Source of the DNA: Liolophura sinensis
Lineage: Eukaryota; Mollusca; Polyplacophora; Chitonida; Chitonidae
Assembly (NCBI RefSeq): GCF_032854445.1
Contig: NC_088301.1
Location: 9,358,281-9,422,280 of the forward strand
Reading direction: 5' to 3'
Length of the DNA stretch: 64,000 nt
The notes under the pieces were generated by a model, which was not told the origin of the DNA, searched no databases, and was given only the letters and a program-made list of their open reading frames with translations. The position numbers were made by a program, and so were the translations under genes. Below are positions 38,086-57,100 of this stretch, in pieces. Every line of letters starts with the position of its first letter. Within the stretch, counting starts at the first letter, position 1.

Positions 38086-40156
38086 TACGGGAAAGAACTG
38101 CACAGCCCAGGGGAAATCAACTGTATGAAGTTACTACTGTAATTCTTCAAACTTTTCAAGTGCCTCATCAATATTTTCAAACATTCTGAGAGAACTATGA
38201 GGTGCAAAGAAATAAGCTGCATCTTGAGTGACAAAAACAAATAATTTTAGATTCATTTTCATAATAGTTGTTTGAATAAATTCCACTGAAAAAAGTGCGT
38301 TTAGTGCTTGAAAATGTTGAAGATTAAAGTTTATTTAACTATTTTGCGTAGAAAAATGAATAAAAGTTAAGGACAACATAAATTAATTTTGATACTTTGA
38401 GCATCGTGATCATAATGATGCATGAATAACAGCAGAAGCTAATTAAACTGAAGCAGAAAATATTTGTGATTTTTGGCACGCAAGAAAAAGCCATAACAAA
38501 GATGACAAATGGAGTTAACACTGATGTCAACTGATAACAATGTAACAATATATAATGAACTATGGGAATCTCTTAGAAAAATACGGTCTTATCGCAATCT
38601 GGTCTAACCTTACAACATGTTTGCCTTTCCTGTTCTTAAAGAACCATCCCATCACCTCTGCTTGATCGACAATTTTATCACAGCTGTCAAAATGTTTCAC
38701 TTTTTACAAAAAACATTCAGATGCATGAAAGTGAAGGCAAATAAGAGGAACATTTTGCTGCTGCAAGTACCTATATCTAAATGGAAGGTAGTCCACAGCA
38801 TAGATTTAGCCAGAATTTCAGATCAGGCCATCTCATTTCCAATTTTCTCCAATTTTCCTCATCTCTCCCATGTTAGTTTTGTCAGAGTACGCAGTGTCAA
38901 ATACACTGAGACTACATATTCATTTACTTCAATGGTATGTTTATTGTCGTACTGAAGAATTTTACACTCAGTATACGACAGCAGTCAAGTTGATTGGAGT
39001 AATGCGTAGACCATCACTAGGTACTTCAGTAGCCACAGGCCTGTTAGCCACAGTGTTATCTCTGCCAGCAAGCACCTTCCAGATGTATCAGCAAATGCCA
39101 AATCAGCCACTACACATTCAATTAACATTCTTGGATATTTTTCAGCTTTTTGTTCATGTTTTATTAGCATGTCTTAACTGATTAACCATGTTCTTCTCTC
39201 CTGTACACTATCTGACCTAAATTTTTTCTCAGCCATTAATGTCATGAACTTTGCCAAAACATGAAGATTGTGTTAAACACAGGGGTAAAACTGAAACAAT
39301 TTTTGTTACTTGTATACTGACAAATCTTGCCTATTTTTTTAGATGAGGAAGAGTTTCTTACAATGGGAGACACACAAGAATTATTTTCTTGAAAAATAAA
39401 GAAAATTTTTAAAGAAAACTCTTGGATTCTCTCATCTAAGAAAGAAATGGATCGACCTGTCAATTTACGAGTAGTTTAAGCATCTGTGTTTTCCACAATT
39501 CCCATTCTTGGGCAAAGTCCAAGACAAAATTTAAGATTTGAGACTGCAATAGAAGTCAAAACAAGTTTCCTCACTGGTAAGAAAAAAAACCTAGGAAAAG
39601 GCGTGAGATTTCAAGAATTATATTTGGACTGTATATCAGTTCTCTTGACTGAAGTTTCTGAAGAAAGCCAAATGTTTGTTGCCAGTGGATTTTTTGTAAT
39701 GTAAAATATACTTTGATTCAATCATAACATTTATTCACTTGGTTCCATTACCCCACATATTAGCTAAAATACATTTAATTTACAGTGATTTAATACAATT
39801 AAATTGATTGAGAGAAAGCCTCATGTTTCTATATTACATGCATGTGTGAAACAACTGTACCAGCCCCTCATTTTTCTTCTCATTTTGCACAAAAAAAATT
39901 CTTATTTAAAAAACATCACTGTTAAAAAAATTATAAAACATTCATTAGTGTTACTTCTTGAAGGCAAATCGATCTTTTCCCAGTATGCAATTTCTCCACA
40001 AAAATGCCACTAATCTTTCAGTGCAAAAATTACTTGATTTCTACTTGATGTTAAGCCATATTCTCATAATTTAGATCACAATTAATGCATGCCTAAATAT
40101 GGACATGACATTGCTAATGATGTTCTGCCTTTTATCATAAACAAAAGGCAACTCTC
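38086..40156. other. AT-rich intergenic region downstream of ORC1
   Basis: No convincing exon. A segment around 38180-38215 (aaacattctgagagaactat) has a relative in ORC1 intron 4 near 53810, so it is an interspersed repeat. Confidence 0.4.
39730..39735 (-). terminator. Possible ORC1 polyadenylation signal
   Basis: The first AATAAA on the minus strand after the ORC1 stop codon. If used, the 3' untranslated region would be about 2.4 kb and would contain the whole 64-bp array. Confidence 0.25.
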
Positions 40157-42155
40157 AACACATATACAAACATCACAGCATCACTTTCGACATTCAGCTG
40201 TATCCTCATAACAATAAGTCTCTCAAGGCAACCACGACATCATCACTGCTGACATTCAGACGGATTCCCATGTCAAGACGCATCTCTCAAGGCAAACATG
40301 ACATCATCACTGCTGACATTCAGACGGATTCCCATGTCAAGACGCATCTCTCAAGGCAAACATGACATCATCACTGCTGACATTCAGACGGATTCCCATG
40401 TCAAGACACATCTCTCAAGCCAAACATGACATCATCACTGCTGACGTTCAGACGGATTCCCATGTCAAGACGCATCTCTCAAGGCAAACATGACATCATC
40501 ACTGCTGACGTTCAGACGGATTCCCGTATCAAGACACATCTCTCAAGGCAACCACGACATCATCACTGCTGACATTCGGACGGATTCCCATGTCAAGATG
40601 CATCTCTCAAGGCAAACATGACATCATCACTGCTGACATTCGGACGGATTCCCATCACTGCTGACATTCGGACGGATTCCCGTATCAAGACACATCTCTC
40701 AAGGCAACCACGACATCATCACTGCTGACATTCGGACGGATTCCCATGTCAAGATGCATCTCTCAAGGCAAACATGACATCATCACTGCTGACATTCAGA
40801 CAGATTCCCGTATCAAGACACATCTCTCAAGGCAACCACGACATCATCACTGCTGACATTCGGACGGATTCCCGTATCAAGACGCATCTCTCAAGGCAAC
40901 CACGACATCATCACTGCTGACATTCGGACGGATTCCATGTCAAGACGCATCTCTCAAGGCAAACATGACATCATCACTGCTGACATTCGGACGGATTCCT
41001 GTATCAAGATGCATCTCTCAAGGCAAACATGACATCATCACTGCTGACATTCGGACGGATTCCTGTATCAAGATGCATCTCTCAAGGCAAACATGACATC
41101 ATCACTGCTGACATTCGGACGGATTCCCATGTCAAGACACATCTCTCAAGGCAACCACGACATCATCACTGCTGACATTCGGACGGATTCCCATGTCAAG
41201 ACGCATCTCTCAAGGCAAACATGACATCATCACTGCTGACATTCGGACGGATTCCTGTATCAAGATGCATCTCTCAAGGCAAACATGACATCATCACTGC
41301 TGACATTCGGACAAATTCCCGTATCAAGACGCATCTCTCAAGGCAAACATGACATCATCACTGCTGACATTCAGACAGATTCCCGTATCAAGACGCATCT
41401 CTCAAGGCAAACATGACATCATCACTGCTGACGTTCAGACGGATTCCCATGTCAAGACACATCTCTCAAGGCAACCACGACATCATCACTGCTGACATTC
41501 GGACGGATTCCCGTATCAAGACGCATCTCTCAAGGCAACCACGACATCATCACTGCTGACATTCGGACGGATTCCCATGTCAAGACGCATCTCTCAAGGC
41601 AAACATGACATCATCACTGCTGACATTCGGACGGATTCCCGTATCAAGATGCATCTCTCAAGGCAAACATGACATCATCACTGCTGACATTCGGACAGAT
41701 TCCCATATCAAGATGCATCTCACAAGGCAAACATGACATCATCACTGCTGACGTTCAGACGGATTCCCATGTCAAGACGCATCTCTCAAGGCAACCACAA
41801 CATCATCACTGCTGACATTCGGACGGATTCCTGTATCAAGATGCATCTCTCAAGGCAACCACGACATCATCACTGCTGATATTCAGATGGATTCCCATGT
41901 CAAGATCCATCTCTCAAGGCAAACATGACATCATCACTGCTGACATTCGGACAGATTCCAATATCAAGATGCATCTCTCAAGGCAAACATGACATCATCA
42001 CTGCTGACGTTCAGACGGATTCCCATGTCAAGACGCATCTCTCAAGGCAACCACGACATCATCACTGCTGACATTCGGACGGATTCCCACATTAAGACGC
42101 ATCTCTCAAGGCAAACATCACATCATCACTGCTGACGTTCAGACGGATTCTCATG
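40157..42155 (-). repeat. 64-bp minisatellite made from the end of the ORC1 coding sequence
   Basis: On the minus strand each unit reads ATG GGA ATC CGT CTG AAC, continues through the codons for [14 protein letters not shown] and a TGA stop, and has one extra base. Thus 64 bp equals 20 codons plus stop plus 1. The anchor tctcaagg runs from 40221 to 42104; 1883 bp equals 29 units of 64 plus one 28-bp partial unit minus one deleted base. This gives 30 anchored units, the last (42092-42155) being the true ORC1 coding end with TAA as stop. Two main variants exist: one with caaacatgac, one with caaccacgac (codon change to GTC GTG GTT). The distal copy at about 40157-40220 is degenerate. Confidence 0.95.
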
Positions 42156-45100
42156 TTGATGTCATTCCTGCCATGCTCTAGTAACAACAGTCGAGTGCTG
42201 CCCAGCTTGGTGCATAGCCCACACACTTCTGACACAGACGGTGATGCATAGCCTGTGGGAGGAGAAAATATTTATTTGTTCACTTATTTGATTGAAGTTT
42301 AATGCTGTACTCATTTATACAACCAGCATTATGGTGTGAGGAAACCAGGCTGGGGGAAACCCACAACCATACGCAGGGCGCTTGAAAACCTTCCCACAAA
42401 CGACTGTAGTTGTGCCTTTAGAAATTTACAGTATCCAAATTTCAACTTTTTGTTCCAAAAACTAAGCCTTCTGAAGTTTCAAATTTTGACCTAAGTCAGA
42501 AATGGCTTTGTGGAACGACCATATGCAGACTGCTTGAAGACCTTCCCACAAACAACTGGAGAGGAAGCCAGCATGAGCTGGACTTGAACTCAAAGCAATT
42601 ACTTTTGTCAGAGGCTCATCGGGCTTTGATTCAACAAAGCCATTTCGGGGCCTCCGTGGCTCAGTCGGTCAAAGCGCTAGCGCAGCGTAATGACCCAGGA
42701 GTCTCTCACCAATGCGGTCGCTGTGAGTTCAAGTCCAGCGCATGCTGGCTTTCTCTCCGGCCGTACGTGAGAAGGTCTGTCAGCAACCTGCGGATGGTCG
42801 TGGGTTTCCCCTGGGCTCTGCCCGGTTTCCACCCACCATAATGCTGGCCGCCGTCGTATAAGTGAAATATTCTTGAGTAGGGCGTAAAACACCAGTCTAA
42901 GCCATTTCTGACTTAAGTCAATATCTGAAATACGATCTGAAAGCTTAGTTTTCCTCTTCAGAAACTAAAAGGTTGTCAACCTCATAAATGTTATCTTAAC
43001 AAGACAAATACATCCAAATTTCAACTTCCTGTTCCAAAAACTTATCTTTATTAAGAAGTTTCAAATTTTGACTTATATCAGAAAGGGCTTTGTGGAATTG
43101 GCACCTGGGTCTTTATGCTCTGCCAGCACCCTAACCTCTAGGCGAGAGAGATGGCAGTGAGATTTATTTATTTATTTATTTGATTGGTGTTTTACGCCGT
43201 ACTCAAGAATATTTCACTTATACAACGGCGGCCAGTATTATGGTGGGTAGAAACCAGGCACAGCCCGGCGGGAACCCACAATCATCCGCAGGTTGCTGGT
43301 AGACCTTCCCACTTACGTCTGGAGAGGAAGCCAACATGAGCTGGACTTGAACTCACAGCGACCGCATTGGTGAGAGGCTCCTGGGTCATTATGCTGCGCT
43401 AGCACGCTAACCGACTGAGCCATGGAGGCCCCTATGGGAGTGAGAAGAGTTAATAATGCTGCAATCAATGGACATGTCAGTAAACATGGCCTTCCCTGGC
43501 TAAGTTATCTAATGAGCTCTATGAAACGATTAGTACTTAGCCTATTTGCCACTGAGAACTCTCACGCATCCTGGAATTCATATTTCGCCCCTGAATTCGG
43601 ATCTAATAAAACTCCAATTAAACAAAACCAAGAGTTGCTCACTAAAAGGATTTACTATAGGGGTAAGATTAATTATTAGATCTCTGGTGTAGCCACTGCC
43701 TTTCACCAGGTAACTGACTAATCTTCAGACATAAACCCACAGTAAACCAAGAGCTGGATTTGAACTCTGTTCAGGAGACTACAGTTCCCAACCAAATAAA
43801 TACTCTGAATTGCTTATCTATAGGTACAACTTTATAACTTAGCTGGTCATATTTATACAAGTATTTAACTGCAATGACTTAAATGGTATGAAAATAGGAC
43901 ATGTTTGGATTCAAGTTGCTCTCATCAAAAATGTCTGCAACAAAACCAACATTCATTAATATGATTTTGATGTCACTTGATTTTTACTTTGATGCTGAAA
44001 TATATGATGCATCCACACGATTCTCTGAATCATTTTCAATCAATACTAGCTATCGACTGAAAATTAAAAGTAAGAAAGATGTCTGCAGTCTGAATGTTGG
44101 ATGACATTGTACCATACCTTCCAGACGACACAGTGCTACATGCTGGGAGAAGACCTTAGCAAACAAGGCTTCCTCTACTCCTGTCCGCTCAAACTCAGAC
44201 ACTATTGCTTTTAGAAACGTCTGCTCTTGAACTGATGCATTCCTGCAAAAAATTCAAGGGTGTCTTGTTATTACAGAATTTATCAGCTCTGTTTTCCTGT
44301 TGAAATCAGATGAAAAACATGGTGATCATGCTATTGTCTAAGGATTTGGCCTGCTTTCCGTCAAGCAAGTTACAGTATATGAGAGTAAATTTTCAGGGCT
44401 AAATTTTCACGGAAAAGATGGTGGGAAAGCGATTATTAATAGGGCTGTTTGTATTTCCAGGTTTTCAGAGGGTTGGAGCTGTTGCTTGCCGTAATGGGAG
44501 CACTGTGTACACAGTCATCTAAGGATTGTTTGAAGTAGGGCTGTACTGCCCATTCCAAAGGTTCTCAATACAATGATTTTAATACCTAACCAGTTTCAAT
44601 GGCCTAAGTGCCTGGGCCCAGTTGCTTGAAAGTGTATTAGCTAATACTGGTGTTAAGTCATATTGTATATTTATAATTTTGGCCAAACTCAGCAGTAAAT
44701 GCAGTTCTCCAAAGTCACACGTATAGCAGCAGAAGTTTTAGTTTAGTTGGGTTGAAAGTGTGACAGAGCCTTCATTTTGGAAGGAACGCACTAAAGTTCT
44801 TGGAGCTGGCCCGTAACACCAAGTGTCCATATATAGTTAAAACTCAGTGACAAATGTAAAAACTCTGACATAGTCCACCTTTAAGTCCCAGCGTGCTTAC
44901 CTCATGGCAACAATTTTAGGGGACGTGAACATTTCCTTGAGGGCAGCATCCACGTGAGCCATACCAACAAGGTTGTCTCCCTTGCCTGACATCTCTGTGA
45001 TTTCTGTGGCTCTACGACAGATGTCCAGAGCTCTCCTAGCATCACCCGACACAGCTGCCACCTTAAACACAAACCAAGTTTTCCTTACACTGAACTACTG

Positions 45101-54100: not shown

Positions 54101-57100
54101 GAATAAAGGTTATGTATTTTTTAAAATTTGGAAGTACTTTTAAAGTTCTGGTCAAAACACAATATAGACAGCTTTGGTGATTCAGCCACATACATCTACT
54201 TAAGTTGAAAATCACAGGCTGCATTTAGTATCTCCTGACATTTCGAAGACTCTCAAAGTCTCATATCATGTGTTTTTATGTTCTGTTGCCCAGAAAATAT
54301 TTAACACTCTCATGATATACCCTACGAGCTGCATGCTGTAATAGGAGGTCCCACTTTCGTAGTTTCATGCCTTAAAAACTAATCTAACATTATGTCATAG
54401 TCGATGTCATATAACAAGGGAGGTAAATCAGAGCAGGCCAATTGTATGCACAAATTCCATTGTAAAACGTGCTTTAGTACACTGACATGTCAAGATTTCC
54501 AGTAATATCTTATTTATTTGCGTCAACAAATCTGCAATTTTCGGGGGCAACATTTGAAGGTATTTACCGTATAATATGGGTTTTACTTACTCAGGTCATC
54601 CTTAGGTGTCCCCTTATTGATGCTTCCCTGTAATGGAATGACCGGTGACCTGGACAGGCCATCCACTTCATCTCCTGACTCCTCCTCCTGACCGTTTGTC
54701 TCTGCTAAGGAGGTCGTCCTGCTTCTCATTCTGCGACCGGGAGTTCTTGTGACAAGACGGTCAGTTTTAGGCACATTTTTTTGCTCTCCATTTTCAGGCC
54801 CGAGGCTTCCGGCGACACTTCTCCGGCGCATCCTCTTCTCGGTAGGACATTTTTCTGTTTCCCCCATCAGTCTGAACTTTTTTCCGTCGAAATCATACCT
54901 GGAGTAGAATACAGGTTTTTTTTTCTTCACAGAGAGGATTTCTGAACAAACATCTGGCAGCTCTGATGTGACCATTATCTGAAACAAGGATTGATTTGTG
55001 TTAGTTCAATAATCTACTAAAAATATTTCACCTCAAGATGATTTGATTGTTCTTTTAATGCCATACGAACGCATTTCTGACATGGGTGATCGTGGTCAGT
55101 ATTACACACAGATATAAGAAAGTAGAATGCCTGAGGTAAACCACTGACCTTTGGCAAGTCACTGAGAAACATTTCAACATGTACGTACAGCTCAGGTTAA
55201 ATGTCAATCGTTTACCGCTTGTACTGCGCTACAAGGCACTGGTTAACGTTCTACTACCCCATGAAAAACCCTCTGCTGAGGTGAGTAGGATTATCGTTGC
55301 AAGGTGTGAATATAATTCCTTCTAACGAAGGTGCGGTCATAGTGTATTCAGTCATGTGAAAATATACTAGCCGTGAAGGTGGACAATTTATCTTGCAATA
55401 AGTTACCAGCCTGAGCACAACAAAATCAGTTCGTCAACTTAATTAAGGGAGTAAACATGTTATCAAAGTCCTCTTTTGGTGTCGATGGTCGGCGTAGGCC
55501 TTCTCATTTTGATATACATATATATTATGAAATACAGAATCTTGCCGCAGAGATTTTAGAGTAAACTCGCCAAATCTCTGCATTAACTTCACAAACCAAT
55601 GAGACTTTCTTGTGAATCCAGCACATGCAATACCGCACACTTCCCGTCTGGGGTATCACCCCGACACAGGCGCAATACTGCACACTTCCCGTCTGGGGTA
55701 TCACCCCAACACAGGCCCAATACCGCACACTTCCTGCCTGGGGTATCACCCCAACACAAGCGCAATATCGCACACTTCCTGCCTGGGGTATCACCCCAAC
55801 ACAAGCGCAATATCGCACACTTCCTGCCTGGGGTATCACCCCAACACAGGCCCAATACCGCACACTTCCTGCCTGGGGTATCACCCCAACACAGGCGCAA
55901 TACTGCACACTTCCCGTCTGGGGTATCACCCCAACACAGGCGCAATACCGCACACTTCCCGTCTCGGGTATCACCCCAACACAGGCACAATATCGCACAC
56001 TTCCTGCCTGGGGTATCACCCCAACACAAGCGCAATATCGCACACTTCCTGCCTGGGGTATCACCCCAACACAAGCGCAATATCGCACACTTCCTGCCTG
56101 GGGAATCACCCCAACACAGGCGCAATACCGCACACTTCCTGCCTGGGGTATCAACCCAACACAGGCGCAATACTGCACACTTCCCGTCTGGGGTATCACC
56201 CCAACACAGGCGCAATACCGCACACTTCCCGTCTCGGGTATCACCCCAACACAGGCGCAATACCGCACACTTCCCGCCTGGGGTATCACCCCAACACAGG
56301 CGCAATACCGCACACTTCCCGTCTGGGGTATCACCCCAACACAAGCGCAATACCGCACACTTCCCGTCTGGGGTATCACCCCAACACAGGCGCAATACCG
56401 CACACTTCCCGCCTGGGGTATCACCCCAACACAGGCGCAATACTGCACACTTCCCGTCTGGGGTATCACCCCAACACAGGCGCAATACCGCACACTTCCC
56501 GTCTGGGGTATCACCCCAACACAGGCGCAATACCGTGCACTTCCTGCCTGGGGTATCATCCCAACACAGGTGCAATACCGCACACTTCCCGTCTGGGGTA
56601 TCACCCCAACACAGGCGCAATACCGCACACTTCCCGTCTGGGGTATCACCCCAACACAGGCGCAATACCGCACACTTCCCGTCTGGGGTATCACAGGCAG
56701 ACAGCAGTCTTGTGTGGCTGTGCCTTTCCATGATCCTTCACAATCATGTCTTCTCATCTGACACATTTGTATGAAGGTCACATCTAATAAACATCATGTA
56801 TTTATATTACTGCAAGGACCGAGTAAGCCTCATATCAAAATAACAAAAAGAAAACATCTAAAAACAAGTATGTTCAGGGCATTGCCAAGCTGCAAACCTT
56901 TCACTGTAGGCTACTTGCTATAGCCGCAGCTATCGGTGTTTTCAATAAGTAAGCCGAAATGGCGGGTGCTCTGTTTTACTTTGACTGCTGCATTTTGTTT
57001 GACACTTGTGAGTAGTATTTACACCAAATGTAATACCACATGCCTACTGTTCTTCAATCTTCTCACTGGGGGGCCTCCGTGGCTCAGTTGGTTAGCGCGC

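Follow-up and report, generated by a model that had tools for sequence, protein, structure and literature searches.

Minisatellites, including those made of coding sequence, are a familiar kind of repeat. By its head-to-tail organization, with a unit of 64 bp (the class being defined by units of about 10-100 bp) and 30 copies beyond an exon, the array described here at the 3' end of the ORC1 gene of a chiton belongs to the minisatellites. With minisatellites or VNTRs of genic origin it shares head-to-tail units of tens of base pairs, a decayed edge, a truncated copy and a recurring block. It differs from them in that its unit is a recognizable, conserved coding end complete with a stop codon, which makes it possible to name the source and to polarize the direction of change. 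Coding minisatellites, such as the PRDM9 zinc fingers and the MUC2 repeats, likewise have a unit of coding sequence; in contrast, the ORC1 copies lie behind the stop codon, their period of 64 is not a multiple of three and no repeat protein is formed. Tandem repeats derived from transposable elements, as presented in PMC6947457, resemble the array in that non-tandem sequence has been turned into tandem sequence, whereas the ORC1 array stems from a host exon. In that review, the legend of Figure 6 describes a path in which transposable elements give rise to satellites and these to coding sequence, and adds that the reverse sense "was not proved yet". Among the titles and opening lines of abstracts listed for the open-licence literature on coding-derived tandem repeats (queried without ORC1 as a term), none concerned the present array or an ORC1-derived minisatellite. 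The present locus is an unusually legible and polarized case of coding sequence becoming tandem repeat, since a single locus displays the source, a founder-like unit, decayed early copies and a mutational bias.

The species name of the chiton studied in PMC11068029 was corrected to Liolophura sinensis (PMC12441733). The window, i.e., the whole 64-kb stretch of DNA that was analyzed, carries the ORC1 gene on its minus strand. Assembled AAA+ and winged-helix pieces, joined approximately, matched human ORC1 (5uj7_A) over 364 residues (E 1.8e-160). The ORC1 exon cores span 54,966 to 42,092 on the minus strand, and the reading frames found at about 59.1 and 57.8 kb, inspected by eye, presumably correspond to the N-terminal BAH region. 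The terminal exon (42092-42252, minus strand) was delimited by a cccacag acceptor, by its frame and by alignment to the end of human ORC1, and it terminates in a TAA stop codon at 42094-42092. The human ORC1 end, RVRLNVSQDDVLYALKD, aligns with the segment that constitutes the repeat unit, and 12 of 17 residues are identical.

The 64-bp array is confirmed at this location, far beyond chance expectation. It directly continues the terminal exon, repeating every 64 bases from position 42154, and was reported by TRF as two adjoining arrays of the same period: 40653-42154 (23.5 copies, 91% matches, score 2423) and 40219-40655 (6.8 copies, 94% matches, score 776). Each unit comprises the last 20 codons of ORC1, the stop codon and one further base. 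Anchoring on a shared motif gave 31 copies, namely the exon end (unit 0; 42091-42154, minus strand), identified as the source of the array by the anchoring, the comparison with the units and the tree, followed by units 1-30 (40210-42090, minus strand). The thirty units counted in the first-pass annotation are thus correct when the exon itself is left out. Twenty-eight of them are full 64-bp units, counting unit 19, which lacks one base; unit 23 (40656-40683) is truncated to 28 bp, and unit 30 is a 62-bp copy at the edge of the array, in which the stop codon has been lost. All unit counts given below rest on the 28 full units, units 23 and 30 being excluded throughout. Contrary to the earlier suggestion that in every unit the 20-codon end is open and followed by a stop codon, unit 6 (41707-41770, minus strand) has an internal TGA at codon 17, in addition to the truncated unit 23 and the stopless unit 30. 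A three-unit block recurs ten units further on, units 8-10 and 18-20 showing only 2 differences. A higher-order repeat was rejected, as the values at lags 4 and 5 (p 0.0275 and 0.014) were not significant over 12 lags, and the similarity of the units to the exon showed no significant trend with their place in the array (Spearman -0.30, p 0.12). At the deletion in unit 23 (40650-40683), the ATG after GCAGTG could belong to either flank and may represent a microhomology of 3 bp.

Tandem arrays easily collapse or expand during assembly, and the copy number given here may be inaccurate. That the array as a whole is an assembly artefact is hardly credible, however, given that its units differ among themselves and that the assembly is described in PMC11068029 as based on PacBio HiFi reads (mean 8,347 bp, 14x), which are about four times as long as the array.

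Comparison of the exon end with the full units revealed three differences that are fixed between them, in agreement with the AGA/GGA, GTG/GTC and TAA/TGA changes pointed out previously. At position 4, the exon has A and the array G (Arg to Gly) in 27 of the 27 units that could be scored, the remaining unit being deleted there. At position 36, the G of the exon is replaced by C in 27 units and by T in one, which is silent, and at position 62 the TAA stop codon of the exon is TGA in all 28 units. None of the three fixed differences is located at a CpG of the exon. Unit 11 (41387-41450, minus strand) differs from the exon end at these three positions only and is thus founder-like. Other positions vary within the array, including codons 5 (CTG/CCG) and 6 (AAC/AAT). 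The exact end of ORC1 is encoded by none of the 28 units; five match it from codon 3 onward, of which four differ by Arg2 to Gly alone, and one differs also at codon 1.

The opposite direction, in which a satellite that existed already was captured at the 3' end of ORC1, would suit a genome rich in minisatellites. The protein encoded by the unit is the conserved C-terminus of ORC1, which argues that the exon is not a captured satellite. In a maximum-likelihood tree of the exon, the two distal relics described below and the 28 units, moreover, the units were united in a single clade (ultrafast bootstrap 92), and the exon, on a branch of zero length, was placed beside the relics. The alignment and tree of the units that had been recommended as a check thus place the exon at the base and the units as derived, although most inner branches were weak on 64 sites, the relics paired with a support of only 65 and on very long branches, and positions 2, 14, 18, 56 and 57 are CpG-recurrent and therefore poor markers of descent. 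A DNA search of the species' own assembly (609,464,459 bases in 632 contigs; very common words skipped and one candidate region scored) returned 19 matches, all of which fell in this array, the last one extending into relic 1. No other locus, and hence no dispersed satellite family, was evident in this search, and the occurrence of the same array at unrelated loci, named earlier as the observation that would point to capture, was not encountered within the same scope. Capture is accordingly regarded as extremely improbable. The status of the exon as the ancestral sequence, with the units derived from it, is well supported by the conservation of the ORC1 end to human, the exon-like relics and the single locus found, with small margins and in one assembly. 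The earlier proposal of a tandem duplication of the exon end as the origin of the array is supported by the fixed differences, the tree, the relics, the single locus and the conservation to human.

Degenerate copies at the far end of the array had been noted before. Their presence was borne out, but they consist of two separate decayed copies, the second of which is situated beyond the limit given previously. Relic 1 (40143-40209, minus strand) has a 6-bp insertion and shares 47 of 61 aligned bases with the exon end (score 26), while relic 2 (40013-40067, minus strand) has a 1-bp insertion and shares 41 of 61 (score 22). Neither score was reached in 5000 dinucleotide shuffles of the 1-kb stretch, in which the maximum was 21, and the 238 other 1-kb tiles of the window scored at most 17 against the exon end. 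Against the array consensus the relics scored lower (23 and 16), and the value of 16 was reached by 5% of 300 shuffles. The same tendency was observed for individual units, none of which exceeded 46 of 61 identical bases with relic 1 or 40 of 61 with relic 2. Both relics retain the A4 of the exon, which is found in no unit. T14 is common to the exon and both relics, and occurs also in 10 of the 28 units. Relic 1 carries G36 as in the exon, but T18, the commoner state of the array; relic 2 carries C18, but an A at position 36 that matches neither exon nor array. After the 1-bp insertion, relic 2 reads VIFALKD followed by a stop codon (40067-40010), and this is closer to the ALKD of human ORC1 than the ALRDAS of the present chiton exon; an older ORC1 end may be preserved in this copy. 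A putative third decayed copy in the vicinity of 40138-40095 was rejected because its score of 10 is at chance level, and so was a match at 38662-38634, with a score of 15 (p 0.11).

Taken as a whole, the array is very probably a neutral, non-functional minisatellite that originated from the 3' end of the ORC1 coding sequence. From the sequence comparisons we infer the following order of events and mode of amplification, together with the lack of function. A segment of about 64 bp, consisting of the last 20 codons, the stop codon and one base, would have been duplicated in tandem. The copy that remained joined to the body of the exon would have stayed under selection, while the copies behind the stop codon were free to decay, such that the duplication would cost the protein nothing. 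Early copies would have decayed into the two distal relics, and at a later stage one daughter unit bearing A4G, G36C and A62G would have been amplified into the present array, by unequal exchange or slippage. The present array shows no detectable exchange with the exon.

This last point bears on another explanation, whereby the array serves as a reservoir from which the ORC1 end is repaired or swapped by gene conversion or unequal exchange. In favor of such a role, the units adjoin the exon, and each is identical to it at all but 3 to 10 of the 64 bases. The fixed sites, two of which are silent, nevertheless differ from the exon in 27 of 27, 28 of 28 and 28 of 28 units, the G at position 4 would turn Arg2 into Gly, and no unit encodes the exact end. 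A reservoir is therefore considered very improbable. Crossing over with any unit had been proposed to leave the C-terminus correct, whereas joining the start of the exon to the end of a unit would yield the correct C-terminus in none of the 28 units for a switch at up to nucleotide 3, in five after nucleotide 6, in 15 after nucleotide 15, in 20 after nucleotide 42 and in all 28 only after nucleotide 57. These counts confine the notion of the units as safe exchange partners to the last codons. The gene conversion between exon and array that had been envisaged is similarly at odds with the three fixed sites, at which no scored unit has the base of the exon. This pattern argues that no tract covering the two silent fixed sites has passed in either direction since the founder; shorter tracts between the fixed sites may have been exchanged, as may sequence before the founder unit arose.

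The variation among the units gave no indication of coding constraint. In codons 1-20, the unit variants comprised 4 synonymous and 14 nonsynonymous changes, compared with 37 and 143 possible ones, and the polymorphic sites were distributed as 6, 5 and 5 over codon positions 1, 2 and 3. The test of third codon positions that had been proposed thus gave the result expected without constraint. With its period of 64, stop codons in the path of any read-through and no codon constraint, the array does not qualify as a coding minisatellite.

Between the ORC1 stop codon and position 39794, the minus strand is free of AATAAA and ATTAAA. The first such hexamers after the stop codon, at 39730-39794, are candidate polyadenylation signals (ATTAAA at 39794 and 39779; AATAAA at 39735), and the same hexamer scan registered a GATAAA at 40136. 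A transcript that uses these signals would include both the array and the relics, and the array is likely to lie within the 3'UTR of ORC1. Given that the mRNA probably carries it, the array might act as a functional 3'UTR element, its copy number for example tuning the mRNA level or translation. Folding of two dimers of the RNA, however, was not stronger than that of shuffled sequences (z 0.28 and 0.78), the distal copies have decayed and such arrays are common in the genome. A functional element is thus judged improbable, and the neutral minisatellite is preferred.

The diversity of the units is concentrated at CpG sites. The six exon sites that are part of a CpG all vary among the units, versus 11 of the 58 other sites (Fisher p = 1.7e-4). 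For sites that form a CpG in any unit the numbers are 11 of 12, versus 6 of 52 for the others, although this count is partly circular. On the basis of this concentration, methylation of the array in the germ line is a reasonable inference. In molluscs, methylation is mosaic, in the CG context and mostly in gene bodies, according to PMC11050768, which concerns gastropods. The observed/expected ratio of CpG was 0.79 in the array, 0.61 in the window and 0.43 in the 42.2-55 kb region. The last value fits a methylated gene body, whereas the ratio of the array does not by itself fit long and heavy methylation, unless amplification renews CpG-bearing units.

The frequency of comparable arrays was estimated from a genome sample of 20 stretches taken at set positions from ten contigs; one stretch consisted entirely of N, leaving 190,000 readable bases. 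Arrays were defined by a period of at least 25, at least 4 copies and a length of at least 300 bp. In total, 27 such arrays filled 29,592 of the 190,000 bases (15.6%), with a mean smallest period of 51.7. The genome is reported to contain 28,010 protein-coding genes (PMC11068029); with the sample scaled to the genome and random placement, ∼206 stop codons would be located in the founding segments of arrays (128-284, from the Poisson error on the array count), a rough estimate that assumes random and tolerated segments and ignores selection and clustering. With so many expected by chance, the ORC1 case is an expected product of this genome, and the array is probably ordinary in this respect.

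A broader proposition is that, in genomes rich in minisatellites, these arise preferentially at coding ends, since a duplication spanning the stop codon leaves the protein intact and frees the copies at once. Many chiton genes would then carry a 3'UTR array of their own end, some of which would alter expression. This proposition is speculative and appears unlikely; if true, the 3'UTR arrays of chitons would be a fossil record of their own coding ends. The simple rule suggested by the locus is that selection on the protein does not see a tandem duplication that spans a stop codon.

The proportion of arrays in the sample, ∼15.6%, differs widely from the 0.08% published for "other (simple repeat, microsatellite, RNA)" in the repeat table of PMC11068029, which also lists 14.04% as unclassified. 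The unclassified share may consist largely of tandem arrays. Within the window, 8 arrays were detected by the same definition. The introns of ORC1 contain additional repeats. Two copies in opposite orientation (42677-42912 and 43135-43400, limits approximate) are located in the last intron and presumably represent SINE-like sequence. A 45-bp array of 23.7 copies (55627-56694) apparently resides inside an ORC1 intron, and several of its reading frames are open on both strands.
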